Shown here: in pieces, positions 43,770-50,131 of the stretch
How the letters are laid out: every line of letters starts with the position of its first letter
Numbering within the stretch: position 1 is the stretch's first letter
NCBI GenBank assembly: GCA_913046215.1
Contig: CAJWRJ010000006.1
Coordinates: 1 to 56,466, forward strand
DNA from: an uncultured Legionellales bacterium
GTDB taxonomy: Bacteria > Pseudomonadota > Gammaproteobacteria > Eutrophobiales > Eutrophobiaceae
Length of the DNA: 56,466 nt
Direction of reading: 5' to 3'
Program-made: the position numbers and the translations under genes
Notes under the pieces: generated by a model
Told to the model about the DNA's origin: nothing
What the model saw: the letters and a program-made list of their open reading frames with translations, nothing else
The model's database searches: none

Positions 43770-43861
43770 ATGAAAAAGCAACAAGGTTTCACACTAATAG
43801 AATTGATGATCGTGGTTGCGATTATAGGTATTTTAGCTGCCATCGCGATTCCATCATACAA
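43770..43861 (+). repeat. 92-nt direct repeat, copy in pilA1
   Basis: From the ATG through the codon for Tyr30 and two more bases, this stretch is identical base for base to 44450-44541. It encodes the leader and the hydrophobic N-terminal helix. The 680-nt spacing equals one pilin gene plus its leader. Confidence 0.98.
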
Positions 43862-44261
43862 CGATTACACAGCAAGAGCACAAGTCACGGAGGGAGTTAA
43901 TTTAACTGGTGGTTTGAAAACATGTATCGCTGAAGCAATTTCTGATAAAGGTAAAGCACCGAATGCTATTGAAGATTGTGGTAGTGCATATAGCGGCGGG
44001 GATGCTAAAAACTCAAAAGAAAATGTCGGTAAATTTGTCAATAAAATAGAGTGTGACAAATGCGGCGAAGAAGGTACGCCAATTAAAATCATTGCTCACT
44101 TTAAGTCTGATGGTGTGGCGTCAGACATTAAATCGAAAAAGTTTGCTATCGGAACAACCGATGGCGTTAACTGGGCTTGTGGCAAACTTACAACACCAGT
44201 AGATGTTTCCGGGGACACAGATTTGGAAAATAGACATCTTCCAGGGTCTTGTAAACCATAA
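43770..44261 (+). CDS. pilA: Type IVa major pilin-like protein, copy 1
   Basis: A 163-residue type IVa prepilin. The leader MKKQQG is cut before Phe by PilD, followed by [24 protein letters not shown] with Glu5 of the mature protein. The globular part holds six cysteines (52, 70, 95, 98, 137, 161), including a CxxC (CDKC), where classical pilins have one C-terminal pair. The first 92 nt are identical to those of the next gene; the rest of the protein differs a lot but keeps the cysteines. It has a strong ribosome binding site, its own promoter and a terminator. Confidence 0.93.
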
Positions 44262-44449: not shown

Positions 44450-44541
44450 ATGAAAAAGCAACAAGGTTTCACACTAATAGAATTGATGATCGTGGTTGCG
44501 ATTATAGGTATTTTAGCTGCCATCGCGATTCCATCATACAA
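44450..44541 (+). repeat. 92-nt direct repeat, copy in pilA2
   Basis: Identical to 43770-43861, including all synonymous positions. Beyond it the genes diverge quickly; only GATTAC follows in both after one mismatch. Confidence 0.98.
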
Positions 44542-44956
44542 GGATTACGTCGCACGCTCTCAGGTAACTGAAGCAGTGAAGTTGACGGGTGGTTTAAAGG
44601 CCTGCATCTCACAGGGCATTAATGAAAAAGGATTAGCGCCGAGTATGTCCAATTGCGGGCACGTGGGACCAATTGATAAAAGATCTCGCTCTGAACTTGG
44701 CAAGTATGTGGATATGCTTGAGTGTGGTATATGTGGCAGCCCTATATCCATCGATAAAAATAATCCCGTCGTTATTATTGCGAAATTTAAAAACTCAGGA
44801 GTTTCAAGTCAAGTTAATGGGGAAACTCTCGCTATAGGAACTATGGATGGTTATAACTGGGTATGCGGATTTAGTCCAAATGCAGAGTTTGGAGCAAAGA
44901 TAAGTGCCAATACAAGTCTCTCAGTTAGATTGTTACCGGGAGCTTGTAAAAATTAG
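44450..44956 (+). CDS. pilA: Type IVa major pilin-like protein, copy 2
   Basis: A 168-residue type IVa prepilin with the same leader and N-terminal helix as copy 1. Six cysteines (52, 69, 92, 95, 139, 166) are in register with copy 1, including a CxxC (CGIC). After about residue 42 the proteins share only scattered blocks (GGLKxCI, the CxxC, AIGTxDGxNWxCG, LPGxCK). No Shine-Dalgarno sequence is visible before the ATG (TTGCTGATTAGAT), in contrast to copy 1, and its promoter is not clear, so it may be weakly expressed or under other conditions. Confidence 0.9.
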
Positions 44957-45830: not shown

Positions 45831-46553
45831 ATGAAAAATTTTTTTGAAAAAGTTTGTATAGTTTTGGTTGGCACTACACATCCAGGCAATATTGGTGCAG
45901 CAGCACGTGCCATGAAAACAATGGGACAGCAGAATTTACGTTTAGTTAGCCCATCTAATTTTCCATCAGCAGATGCAAGTGCGCGAGCTGCTGGCGCTGA
46001 TGACCTACTTGCTAAAAGTAAAGAATTCACATCCCTAAAAGAGGCTATAAAAGATTGCGATTTGGTTGTCGGTACGAGTGCTCGTGTAAGAGGAATTCCA
46101 TGGCCCATGTTATCTCCACGCGACTTTGCAAAAAAAATTTCTAAGAATAACTTTTCTTCTATTGCAATAGTTTTTGGTAAAGAAAGCTCTGGGTTATCAA
46201 ATGAAGAATTACAGTTATGTAATATGGTTCTAAAAATACCTACTAATGATGAATATAATTCATTAAATTTAGCAGCTGCAGTACAAATAGTTTGCTATGA
46301 AATTTTTACACAAATAAATAGCAATAATGAAGAAAAGAGTACAGAAGATTCGTTATTGGTAAGTCAGGAAAAAATGGAGCAATTCTACTTGCATTTAGAA
46401 GAATGCCTAATTCAAATTGGCTATCATGATGAAAATAATCCTAAAAAATTGATGCATAGATTACGTCGATTGTTTAATCGAACTCAACTATATGATAGTG
46501 AATGGAGGATATTGCGTGGAATTATTTCCAAAATTCAAGAAAAAAATAAATAG
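45831..46553 (+). CDS. trmJ: tRNA (cytidine32/uridine32-2'-O)-methyltransferase TrmJ
   Basis: A 240-residue SPOUT-class RNA methyltransferase that modifies position 32 of tRNAs. Motifs: VLVGTTHPGNIGAAARAMKT, VFGKESSGLSNEEL and NSLNLAAAVQIVCYE, the last two forming the knot that binds SAM. A C-terminal dimerisation extension is present. It is divergent from suhB. Confidence 0.93.
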   Translation: MKNFFEKVCIVLVGTTHPGNIGAAARAMKTMGQQNLRLVSPSNFPSADASARAAGADDLLAKSKEFTSLKEAIKDCDLVVGTSARVRGIPWPMLSPRDFAKKISKNNFSSIAIVFGKESSGLSNEELQLCNMVLKIPTNDEYNSLNLAAAVQIVCYEIFTQINSNNEEKSTEDSLLVSQEKMEQFYLHLEECLIQIGYHDENNPKKLMHRLRRLFNRTQLYDSEWRILRGIISKIQEKNK

Positions 46554-46592: not shown

Positions 46593-47543
46593 ATGAGTAA
46601 AAATAAAAAATTATTATCTATTGTTGCACCAGCCTATAATGAAGCTGAAAACATTGACGAGTTTTATTCTAGAATCCTAGAATCTACAAAAGATCTCAAT
46701 CTTGATATTGAAATTATCTATGTTAATGATGGAAGTCTAGATAAAACTATCGATGTTATTTATAAACAAAAAGAAAATAATGACCACATCACAGCAATTG
46801 ATTTGAGTAGAAATTTTGGTAAAGAAATAGCGCTTACAGCAGGACTAGATTATTCATCTGGTGATGCGGTAGTTGTCATTGATACTGATCTGCAAGACCC
46901 ACCCGAATTAATTCCTAAATTGGTAGAGAACTGGAATGATGGTTATGATGTAGTTAATGCAAAACGTATTAAAAGAGAGGGTGAATCATCATTAAAAAAA
47001 ATAACATCATATATTTATTATCGCGTACTCTTTCGTCTTAGTGATATAAGTATTCCTAAGGACATCGGTGATTTTCGTTTATTAGACAGAAAAGCTCTAG
47101 ATGCATTATTGAAATTGAGAGAAAAACATCGCTATATGAAAGGGTTATTTGTTTGGGTTGGCTTTAAACAAAAAGAAATAGAGTATGAAAGAGAAGCGAG
47201 ATTCAAAGGTAAAACTAAATTGAATTTACTTAGTTTGTTTAATTTAGCATTTGATGGTCTAACTTCTTTTTCAATCATGCCATTACGACTAGCATCAATT
47301 ATCGGATTCTTATCCGCAGTCACAGGGTTCTTATACGGAGCTACAATTGTTATTAAAACTATCTTTTTTCATGAGCCAGTAGCCGGTTTTACATCACTTG
47401 TTGTTTTGATCACTTTCTTTGGCGGCATACAATTACTTTCTATCGGTATTATAGGTGAATATATCGGTAGAATTTTTAACGAAACAAAAAATAGACCACT
47501 ATATATAGTAAAAAATATAAAGCATTCTATTTTTTTTAAATAA
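46593..47543 (+). CDS. Polyprenyl-phosphate glycosyltransferase (GT2, GtrB/DPM1-like)
   Basis: A 316-residue family-2 glycosyltransferase. The N-terminal GT-A domain starts SIVAPAYNEAENIDEFY and has the metal-binding DTDLQDPPELIP motif. Two C-terminal membrane helices (about 233-257 and 268-292) end in IGEYIGRIFNE, typical of enzymes that load a sugar onto undecaprenyl phosphate (GtrB, ArnC, dolichol-phosphate mannose synthase). The sugar cannot be told from sequence. It is followed by a GT22-like membrane transferase, a likely user of its product. Confidence 0.88.
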   Translation: MSKNKKLLSIVAPAYNEAENIDEFYSRILESTKDLNLDIEIIYVNDGSLDKTIDVIYKQKENNDHITAIDLSRNFGKEIALTAGLDYSSGDAVVVIDTDLQDPPELIPKLVENWNDGYDVVNAKRIKREGESSLKKITSYIYYRVLFRLSDISIPKDIGDFRLLDRKALDALLKLREKHRYMKGLFVWVGFKQKEIEYEREARFKGKTKLNLLSLFNLAFDGLTSFSIMPLRLASIIGFLSAVTGFLYGATIVIKTIFFHEPVAGFTSLVVLITFFGGIQLLSIGIIGEYIGRIFNETKNRPLYIVKNIKHSIFFK

Positions 47544-47604
47544 GCCATAAGTAATAAATTAATAAAAGTATAAATTTTATATTCTATAATCTGGATAATT
47601 TAGA

Positions 47605-49077
47605 ATGACAATAGCTGAAAAGTATTGGTTTGTCGGCGCCTTCTTAGTTTATTTCATAGCAGCATGGTTTAGTGTCGGGCATTATCATGATGACGAGTAC
47701 TATCAAATACTAGATTTCGCTGCCTATAAGCTAGGCTTTCAGATGCAAAATAGTCTCATGTGGGAACATGAGTCGGCTGTAAGGAGCGGTTTGCAGCCTT
47801 TTATTGCATTCATAGTTGCTAAGCTTTCGATGTTCGCAAATGTAACATCCCCTTTTATCTGGGCATTCTATCTTCGCTTACTAACTTTAATTGTTTCATT
47901 TTTAGCTTTATTTGCTTTTTTTAAAGTTATTAAAGAAGAAAACAGTGTAGATAGATATTTTCCTTGGGTTCTCTTTTTTCTATTATTTTCATGGATACAA
48001 ATCTTTGTAAATATTCGTTTTTCCTCTGAAGGGTGGTCTTCCTCGCTATTTCTTCTTTCATATGCAATTTATTTTTCAAACCAATCATCATATGTAAAAA
48101 AATATTTTTTCGTCGGACTTTTTCTGGGTCTCGCATTCCTATTCAGATTTCAAACCGGATTCCTAATTTTGGGACTCGGACTTTGGATAATATTTCACAG
48201 AAAAGAAACAATAAGGGAGTATATTATTCTTTCACTTGGTTTTATGTGCGCAATACTTCTCGGTTTAATTGTTGATTACTGGTTTTATGAAAAATTTACA
48301 ATTAGTTTCTTGAATTATTTTTCATGGCACATAATTGATGGTTCAATAGATCATATTGTTGAACCATGGTGGTTTTATACTTATTATTCTATGGTTCAGC
48401 TTGTCCCACCTATTACTTTTTTAGTTCCATTTACTATTCTTATTTTCTGGTTTTTGTTCCCAAGGCATCCTATAACATGGATAACCATTCCTTTTATCTT
48501 ATTTCATCATTATTTTGGCCATAAAGAAATGAGATATTTATTCCCAATTTTGCCTTTCATTCCAATAATTTTTTCGATGGCTATTATAAAATTAATAAAT
48601 TACTTTGAATTTTTAAAGAAAAATATGTTTGAGAATTTCTTAAAATTTCTTTTATGCATATCTTTTCTATTGAACATCCCGCTAGTATTTTTAACTATTA
48701 GTTTGCCAGCTAGCAAGGAGGTAGCTCTTTGGCAAAATTGTTTTTCGGAGCATATGCCAGATAATTCAATTTTACTTGTTTATGATCCTGATAACTCAGG
48801 CTCATCAACAGGCGAATTAGAATTAGATTTTTACAATCAAAGAAATATACCGATCCTTTCTGTTAAGGATGAGACTGAAATAAGTAAAAAATTAATAGAA
48901 TTTCCTGATAGAAAATTATTTTATGCTTCAAGAAAAAAAGGAAGGGCATCAATGCTTGTTATTAATGAAATTAAAAGTGAACTTGTATGTCAAGCATTGC
49001 CAGACTGGCTTTTGAAAATTAATATTAATAATTGGACATCAAGAGCAAGTATATGGCAGATTTGGGGAATCAAATGA
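47605..49077 (+). CDS. GT22-family (Alg9/PIG-B-like) membrane mannosyltransferase-like protein
   Basis: A 490-residue polytopic membrane protein with about ten helices and a C-terminal periplasmic domain. GT22 hallmarks are visible: the first loop GHYHDDEYYQILDF (Asp-Asp-Glu, residues 29-31), then WEHESAVRSGLQP, and the late HKEMRYLFPILPF motif. GT22 enzymes are GT-C fold transferases that use lipid-phosphate sugars, in eukaryotes dolichol-phosphate mannose. The acceptor is unknown; lipid, polysaccharide or pilin are possible. It lies 61 nt after the GT2 gene. Confidence 0.75.
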   Translation: MTIAEKYWFVGAFLVYFIAAWFSVGHYHDDEYYQILDFAAYKLGFQMQNSLMWEHESAVRSGLQPFIAFIVAKLSMFANVTSPFIWAFYLRLLTLIVSFLALFAFFKVIKEENSVDRYFPWVLFFLLFSWIQIFVNIRFSSEGWSSSLFLLSYAIYFSNQSSYVKKYFFVGLFLGLAFLFRFQTGFLILGLGLWIIFHRKETIREYIILSLGFMCAILLGLIVDYWFYEKFTISFLNYFSWHIIDGSIDHIVEPWWFYTYYSMVQLVPPITFLVPFTILIFWFLFPRHPITWITIPFILFHHYFGHKEMRYLFPILPFIPIIFSMAIIKLINYFEFLKKNMFENFLKFLLCISFLLNIPLVFLTISLPASKEVALWQNCFSEHMPDNSILLVYDPDNSGSSTGELELDFYNQRNIPILSVKDETEISKKLIEFPDRKLFYASRKKGRASMLVINEIKSELVCQALPDWLLKININNWTSRASIWQIWGIK

Positions 49078-49090
49078 CATTTATATCTTT

Positions 49091-50131
49091 TTATTTGAAT
49101 TGAACCTTCTCTCGTCCATTATTTTCAATTACCTTTCCGACCTTCCATGCAGTTTCATTATTATTAGAGAGAAAATTGATAGTTTTATCTACATCTTTGT
49201 GATTCACACATAATACTAAGCCAATACCACAGTTAAAAGTTCTAAACATTTCATTTTGATTTATATTGCCTTGCTCGGATAACCAATTAAATATAGGAGG
49301 CATATTCCATGTGCCAGTGTCTATCGTAACCGACATGTTTTTTGGCATTGTTCTTGGGATATTTTCAATTATACCGCCACCCGTTATATGAGCTATAGAT
49401 TTAATCTCTATTTTTTGTATTAAATCGAGAATTGTCTTTGTGTATATACGAGTTGGAGTTAATAAATGATCTAAAAGTTTTTTTTCATCAATAACTTGAG
49501 ATAAGTCTGCTTTCGTATCTTTCAGTATTTTTCTAATTAAAGAGTAGCCATTTGAATGAAATCCATCTGATCCGACAGCAATAAGAACATCATCCTCAAT
49601 CACGTCCTCACCTGTAATCATTTTTTCTTTTTCAACAACACCAACACAAAAACCAGCCAAGTCATAATCTTTTGGTTTGTACATGCCCGGCATCTCGGCA
49701 GTTTCCCCACCTATTAAAATACAGTCAGCAATAGAGCAGCCAGTTTTTATACCCTTAATAACAGTTTCCGCGGTGTCTACATTCAGTTTTGAACAGGCGT
49801 AATAGTCAAGAAAAAACAGTGGTTTTGCGCCTTGTACAATTATGTCGTTTACGCACATGGCAACAAGATCTATACCGACTGTCTCATGCACATCATTTTC
49901 AATCGCTACTTTGATTTTTGTGCCAACTCCATCGGTTCCAGATACAAGCACAGGTTTTTTATAGCCCAACTCGCTGAGGTCAAATAATCCTCCAAAACCA
50001 CCAAGTTTGCCAATTGCACCTTTTTGATTATTGTTTACTATTTTTTTCAGCCTTGACACTAACTCGTCTCCTTTCTCAATACTGACTCCGGCGTCCTTGT
50101 AGCTCGTCTCTTTGTTTGTGTTATCGGTCAT
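49091..50131 (-). CDS. purM: Phosphoribosylformylglycinamidine cyclo-ligase (AIR synthetase)
   Basis: A 346-residue enzyme, fifth step of purine synthesis. Family motifs: SYKDAGVSIEKGDELV, VSGTDGVGTKIKVA, GGETAEMPGMY and HITGGGIIENIPR. The divergent DUF2066 gene and the perM-hda pair that follow it are the common neighbourhood. purN, often next to purM, is not downstream; only 13 nt remain before the convergent GT22 gene. Confidence 0.96.
   Translation of the reverse strand: MTDNTNKETSYKDAGVSIEKGDELVSRLKKIVNNNQKGAIGKLGGFGGLFDLSELGYKKPVLVSGTDGVGTKIKVAIENDVHETVGIDLVAMCVNDIIVQGAKPLFFLDYYACSKLNVDTAETVIKGIKTGCSIADCILIGGETAEMPGMYKPKDYDLAGFCVGVVEKEKMITGEDVIEDDVLIAVGSDGFHSNGYSLIRKILKDTKADLSQVIDEKKLLDHLLTPTRIYTKTILDLIQKIEIKSIAHITGGGIIENIPRTMPKNMSVTIDTGTWNMPPIFNWLSEQGNINQNEMFRTFNCGIGLVLCVNHKDVDKTINFLSNNNETAWKVGKVIENNGREKVQFK

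Follow-up and report, generated by a model that had tools for sequence, protein, structure and literature searches.

Glycosyltransferases of family GT22 are familiar from the assembly of N-glycans and glycosylphosphatidylinositol (GPI) anchors in eukaryotes, and ALG9, ALG12, PIGB and PIGZ use dolichol-phosphate-mannose (Dol-P-Man). In this work, a bacterial GT22 gene and the predicted polyprenyl-phosphate sugar synthase gene of family GT2 that directly precedes it were analyzed in a stretch of 56,466 nucleotides from an uncultured Legionellales bacterium (GenBank assembly GCA_913046215.1, contig CAJWRJ010000006.1, positions 1 to 56,466), hereafter called the window. It was concluded that the two genes probably encode an extracytoplasmic glycosylation module (probability of about 0.72), a reading based on protein family, conservation, predicted-fold likeness and co-occurrence. 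The genome of the window (G000) has a size of 1.40 Mb and is 98.8% complete.

Systems composed of a synthase, a GT-C transferase and a flippase modify O antigens (PMC11127046) and Gram-positive wall polymers (PMC8035078), and PgfS-PgfM1 modify surface proteins (PMC5856776). The GT-C partners named in these three are PMT-2, YfhO, GT136 or serotype Gtr enzymes. The GtrA/GtrB/Gtr(type) system for O-antigen glucosylation in Shigella and Salmonella resembled the window pair in joining a GtrB-type synthase to a GT-C transferase (PMC11127046); however, the GT-C enzyme of the window belonged to GT22 and was unmatched in phage records, and no GtrA match was found among 16 genomes. The CsbB/YfhO/GtcA and other Gram-positive multi-component systems also combine a GT-A synthase with a GT-C enzyme, but the GT-C enzymes listed for them are YfhO, PMT-2 or proteins of no named domain, and flippases of GtrA or Wzx type were proposed for them (PMC8035078). 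In Streptococcus mutans, a GT-C-like gene lies alongside PgfS, the nearest NCBIfam model of the window's GT2, although GT2 scored below the PgfS cut-off and PgfM1 is of the PMT-2 subfamily (PMC5856776). The eukaryotic ALG9, ALG12, PIG-B and PIG-Z share GT22 with the window protein (PMC6801728), whereas the window enzyme is bacterial, shows 10-14% identity in structural alignments, is paired with a GtrB-type synthase and presumably serves a different acceptor.

The pair therefore follows the known logic of a synthase with a GT-C enzyme but with a different transferase, GT22. Among the papers listed in searches of the open-access literature, none was seen to describe a GT22 enzyme from bacteria; most subscription papers lay outside these searches. 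Such an enzyme may be easier to study than those of the endoplasmic reticulum.

The GT2 synthase and the GT22 transferase

The GT2 open reading frame (ORF) encoded 316 amino acids. It started 39 bp after the end of trmJ and was separated from the GT22 gene by 61 bp. The protein matched PF00535 with 108.8 bits (Pfam). Among solved structures, the closest was Synechocystis sll0501 with 332 bits (GT2 residues 8-309 aligned to sll0501 residues 28-329); we take sll0501 to be GtrB, while its database entry says glycosyltransferase. It was followed by ArnC (167-171 bits) and then by a dolichol-phosphate-mannose synthase (DPMS), presumably from Pyrococcus (70.5 bits). Hydropathy maxima were recorded at residues 225-254 and 257-289. 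The GT-A domain, the C-terminal membrane helices and a match along the length placed the protein in the GtrB type, and the call of a GtrB/DPM1-like GT2 enzyme, made in the earlier sequence-only reading, was thus upheld. The equivalog thresholds of PgfS (299.4 versus 500 bits) and ArnC (PRK10714; 203.5 versus 529 bits) were both missed.

The GT22 ORF encoded 490 amino acids. The protein matched PF03901 with 89.6 bits, over a cut-off of 23.8, and had no second Pfam match at E ≤ 1. An assignment to ArnT or the PMT family was rejected, since PF03901 was the sole Pfam match. The orthologues of genomes G001, G003 and G033 also matched PMT_2, more weakly than PF03901 (39.8 versus 118.8, 30.9 versus 115.5 and 21.5 versus 111 bits, respectively).

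Both motifs that mark GT22 members were found, an acidic one in the first extracytoplasmic loop and one of HKExR type in a late loop. Across 13 orthologues, GHYHDDEYY was invariant except for Y33 and GHKEMRYLFP was unchanged; H26, H28-D29-D30-E31, W53-E54, R60-S61, P65 and H306-K307-E308-M309-R310 were invariant. The hallmarks quoted in the sequence-only reading (HDDEYYQ, WE...RS...P and HKEMRYLFP) were present in the protein. In an alignment of seven GT22 proteins, the other six being 18-49% identical to that of the window, D30, E31, Q34, W53, E54, R60 and H301 were invariant, and HKExR was kept in most members, the protein of locus L067 having HREYR and that of L068 lacking the motif. Various GT-C enzymes require a DxD/DD motif that follows the first membrane helix, and a conserved R or K is described in a late luminal loop of GT-C enzymes (PMC6801728). 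It was proposed from this conservation that the first-loop acidic motif is the catalytic site, and GHKEMRYLFP may contact the donor phosphate.

An AlphaFold model of the GT22 protein was built from 13 sequences (mean predicted local distance difference test score (pLDDT) of 59.6, predicted template modelling score (pTM) of 0.57). The best structural match was ALG12 (Z of 20.8, root-mean-square deviation of 5.5 over 426 residues), followed by Pmt1-Pmt2 (Z of 18.2, 325 residues) and ALG9 (17.9, 424 residues), with ArnT lower (16.5, 415 residues). As rows two to sixteen crowded between Z of 18.2 and 16.3, the family cannot be read from this ranking by itself; the predicted GT-C fold is firm and the order within GT-C less so. 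The profile score, the motifs and the top rank of ALG12 all pointed to GT22. A sequence search of solved structures with the protein or its profile gave nothing at E ≤ 1, and the structural link thus rests on the predicted model. The sole NCBIfam match at E ≤ 1 was NF047440, the putative glycosyltransferase family LA_3751/LA_3752, far below its cut-off (22.7 versus 200 bits). With no better GT-C match than PF03901, ArnT included, the GT22 call made earlier was retained.

Distribution and gene order in relatives

GT22 was rare: in a sample of 369 genomes of the class, which included that of the window, 14 passed the PF03901 cut-off (24 at E ≤ 0.001), and none of 14 control genomes did. Co-occurrence was examined in 53 genomes of the window's family; the relatives recovered were metagenome genomes labeled Legionellales, Thiotrichaceae or Gammaproteobacteria. 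The score thresholds, about 500 bits (GT22), 550 bits (GT2) and 400 bits (the methyltransferase described below), were set at gaps in the score lists, and lower rows were dropped. The next scores were 339.8 bits for GT2 and 177.8 for the methyltransferase; for GT22, the next matches were the second piece of the G416 gene and remnants in G412 and G025.

GT22 was present in 15 genomes, the GT2 orthologue in 14 and both in 13 (Fisher P of 1.7e-9, uncorrected for kinship). Here G416, with GT22 split over two frames, was counted as GT22-positive and G012, with GT2 cut by a contig end, as GT2-negative. G002 and G005 (genus g1, that of the window) were entered as negatives; the next gene, purM, was likewise not found in them, hence the absence of the pair there was not counted against it. 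Within genus g4 alone, nine genomes had both genes, one GT2 only and two neither (P of 0.045), so that all nine GT22 genomes of this genus had the GT2 orthologue. The two genes adjoined in five pair genomes (G000, G001, G003 and G004 of g1, and G033 of g4) and lay on separate contigs in the other eight. Since the pair shares no contig in these eight, the co-occurrence exceeds synteny. The result named earlier as a refutation, a lack of co-occurrence in related genomes, was thus not obtained; of the 15 genomes with GT22, 13 joined a synthase to a GT-C enzyme as in three-component Gtr-like systems.

Two GT22 genomes lacked a full GT2 orthologue. In G012, the end of a GT2 sat at the contig edge. 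In G011, a 407-residue GT2-GtrA fusion ended about 30 bp upstream of GT22 (L070, 5247-7966), replacing the GT2 of the window type; among solved structures it was closest to the DPMS (192.7 bits versus 39.7 for sll0501). All 15 GT22 genomes of the family therefore show such a synthase, one only as a fragment, by two different routes. With this different synthase before its GT22, G011 offers a natural experiment on donor choice. The family as a whole raises the questions of which sugar, flippase and acceptor are used and whether GT22 can change its donor.

In genera g1 and g4, the gene order was suhB, trmJ, the methyltransferase where present, GT2, purM, DUF2066, perM and hda, with local gaps; several gene names at these loci were assigned by eye or through BLAST matches to genes of the window. 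Of the 14 GT2 genomes, 11 had the methyltransferase (PF13489) with a score of at least 400 bits. It always lay directly before GT2, the matched stretches being no more than 24 bases apart, and was not found at this score in G000, G001 and G004. The order trmJ, methyltransferase, GT2, purM was also that of the sister genus g4, which corrects the earlier statement that trmJ is normally followed by other genes. GT22 followed GT2 in g1, and in most g4 genomes it stood by itself, its neighbors including an aminotransferase and an AsmA protein. GT2 thus keeps its usual place, and it is the position of GT22 that differs.

In G033, the methyltransferase, GT2 and GT22 formed one block at another site. 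The GT22 tree (built without G416) and the methyltransferase tree grouped G033 with g1 (supports of 0.965 and 0.996). The GT2 tree (without G012) set G033, g1 and the outgroup apart from other g4 genomes (1.000), the exact place of G033 being weak (0.33), and in the purM tree g1 was separated (0.961) from g4 genomes that included G033. These trees fit either a move of the block as a unit or retention of an old block in both g1 and G033. The trait may also be lost in some species, as suggested by a GT22 gene that is split over two frames in G416, survives in G412 as a remnant of 42 residues and is interrupted by a stop within a fragment in G025 (L060 to L063).

The G+C content was 30.6% for GT2, 31.4% for GT22 and 34.5% for the window. 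The composition gave no sign of recent import, hda (28.7%) and perM (31.4%) being equally low. Phage-borne seroconversion was set aside, as the GT22 protein was unmatched in phage records and had no relative in viral contigs. Promoter-like sites were not in excess (15 versus 19.8 in shuffles); terminator-like sites numbered 3 versus 1.6 expected, all inside the GT22 frame, two on the forward and one on the reverse strand.

At L064 (8972-11357), a GT22 gene (156 bits) and the beginning of a methyltransferase frame of FkbM type overlapped, a further case of GT22 next to a methyltransferase. In G144, from another family of the class (L067, 9041-13067), GtrA and GT2 genes lay about 0.8-1.2 kb from GT22 on the same strand.

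Proposed reaction sequence and alternatives

Judged from the protein families, GT2 would move a sugar from a cytoplasmic nucleotide sugar to form a polyprenyl-phosphate-sugar. The lipid-linked sugar would then reach the periplasmic side by a route that does not use a GtrA-family flippase. GT22, with the acidic motif after its first membrane helix, would by its family and predicted fold transfer the sugar, at the periplasmic face, to an acceptor. The methyltransferase whose gene directly precedes GT2 in relatives, and which is absent from the window, may add a methyl group to the sugar or to the acceptor. PMT_2 proteins were not found in the window's genome, where only PF03901 and PF13231 were searched, and GT22 was therefore the only candidate user of the lipid-linked sugar found there.

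Several observations weighed against this reading. A GtrA-family flippase (PF04138) was found in 0 of 16 genomes versus 7 of 14 controls, MATE, Wzx and SMR proteins not being searched. Other PMT_2 proteins that could use the GT2 product were carried by G415, G008, G416 and G033 (g4). G023 had GT2 and the methyltransferase without a GT22 or PMT_2 match, hence GT2 can exist without GT22, and G011 held a further, more distant GtrB-like GT2 elsewhere (277 bits). Of five genomes from outside the family whose GT22 flanks were searched by tblastn with the GT2 of the window, only one (G144) had a GT2 near GT22. The GT22 model was of modest quality, and neither of the sugar routes tested, to GDP-mannose or UDP-glucose (guanosine and uridine diphosphate sugars), was present in every pair genome. 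The lipopolysaccharide (LPS)-type neighborhood described next was seen at two loci only, with the names lptF and lptG given by eye.

The block in L004 and GT22 in G011 adjoined ORFs named by eye pepA, lptF and lptG, from which they were separated by an RDD gene (confirmed in L004 only), and the window's genome carried an O-antigen-ligase-like protein and genes of the GT9 heptosyltransferase type. An LPS-type acceptor was the first guess for these reasons. The chances that the acceptor is LPS or another envelope glycan were put at about even; a pilin would be an unlikely acceptor, and another protein or lipid takes the remaining share.

TfpW adds a sugar to type IV pilins in some Pseudomonas. 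It was considered whether GT22 similarly modifies the type IV pilins encoded upstream, as the two PilA-like genes of the window and the presence of pilin genes near 7 of 14 GT2 loci (the window, L002, L003, L014, L080, L081 and L082) might suggest; among the other seven loci, the far flanks were masked at two (L076 and L079). However, no pilin gene was found at ten GT22 loci from outside genus g1 (L004-L013, flanks of 0.1 to 8 kb per side examined), G023 retained pilins near GT2 yet lacked GT22, and suhB, on the opposite strand, and trmJ intervene between the pilins and the pair. The linkage of GT22 to pilins was confined to genus g1, and the linkage across relatives sought for a TfpW-like enzyme was not seen. 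Pilin glycosylation was accordingly rated improbable, and the connection of the pair with pilins, guessed at earlier, was weak and not supported. It was thought slightly less probable still that GT2 and GT22 serve separate pathways, GT2 feeding other GT-C enzymes and the adjacency being an accident of synteny in one genus. The adjacency in only 5 of 13 genomes, GT2 alone in G023 and the PMT_2 proteins near GT2 in L077 and L078 are in line with such a separation, but it fits poorly with the GT2 orthologue in 13 of 15 GT22 genomes (9 of 9 in g4), with a different synthase directly upstream of GT22 in G011 and with the failure to find PMT_2 in the window's genome.

Within the proposed glycosylation module, the sugar itself was assessed with less certainty. 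GT22 might be a mannosyltransferase like its eukaryotic relatives and GT2 a polyprenyl-phosphate-mannose synthase, a version held tentatively. The GT22 members ALG9, ALG12, PIGB and PIGZ (PMC6801728), the structure titles 9s6t and 9s6u, which name Dol25-P-Man, and the coupling of GT22 to a DPMS-type enzyme in G011 speak for it, as does a full GMP_PMI, for GDP-mannose, in the window's genome (635 bits), with no GalU over the cut-off there. On the other hand, GT2 was far nearer to sll0501 than to the DPMS, and GMP_PMI over the cut-off, found in nine pair genomes, was wanting in four (partial in G003, not found in G004, G410 and G414). These four genomes are 80-91% complete, hence the absence is no proof. 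GDP-mannose as the donor was given the same tentative standing, somewhat short of even. UDP-glucose was considered an unlikely donor, as GalU over the cut-off was found in only one of the 13 pair genomes (G004). The sister species G410 and G414 had neither GMP_PMI nor GalU over the cut-off, and a nucleotidyltransferase match of GlmU size, named by eye and size, was found in all six genomes checked. UDP-N-acetylglucosamine is the only donor among the three considered that all pair genomes should make, and a UDP-N-acetylhexosamine was regarded as a possible donor, a little behind GDP-mannose. A doubtful extension is that of a bacterial GT22 which has left mannose, the N-acetylhexosamine coming from a GtrB-type synthase, being methylated in relatives and reaching an envelope glycan via a flippase of an unnamed family.

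Coordinates and neighboring genes

Table 1. Positions of the genes and motifs in the window.
Feature	Position	Strand	Basis
GT2 polyprenyl-phosphate sugar synthase (predicted), GtrB/ArnC/PgfS type, C-terminal membrane helices	46593..47543	+	PF00535, sll0501 alignment, hydropathy
GT22 (Alg9-like) GT-C membrane glycosyltransferase; alpha/beta stretch at the C-terminal end of the model	47605..49077	+	PF03901, motifs, model
Acidic motif GHYHDDEYY, first loop, residues 25-33; proposed catalytic site	47677..47703	+	Conservation
GHKEMRYLFP motif, residues 305-314; proposed donor-phosphate contact	48517..48546	+	Conservation
trmJ, left neighbor, thought to be outside the pathway	45831..46553	+	TIGR00050 (TrmJ/YjtD family) over cut-off; order kept in relatives
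purM, right neighbor, thought to be outside the pathway	49091..50131	-	PF00586/PF02769, name by eye; order kept in relatives
PilA-like pilin, first of two	43770-44261		Open frame and Pfam
PilA-like pilin, second of two	44450-44956		Open frame and Pfam

The tandem PilA-like pilins were identical in their first 30 residues and divergent in the remainder, and both ended in LPGxCK plus one residue. The distance from pilin to suhB was 0.4 to 6 kb in L080, L081 and L082. In L072, L073, L077 and L078 (g4), the side of suhB away from trmJ carried sugar-nucleotide and glycosyltransferase-like genes, named partly by eye, and some PMT_2 genes. With pilins in g1 and glycan-type genes in several g4 genomes, this side is perhaps a variable glycan or pilin site.

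Elsewhere in the window's genome (L127, contig G000:C21, 1702-12264), a 2-aminoethylphosphonate (AEP) cluster lay beside the hopanoid genes HpnH and HpnB. It comprised a fusion of phosphoenolpyruvate (PEP) mutase and nucleotidyltransferase, a phosphonopyruvate decarboxylase, an AEP aminotransferase and a second nucleotidyltransferase. The fused mutase and the second nucleotidyltransferase were also recognized by eye in L126 and L129.

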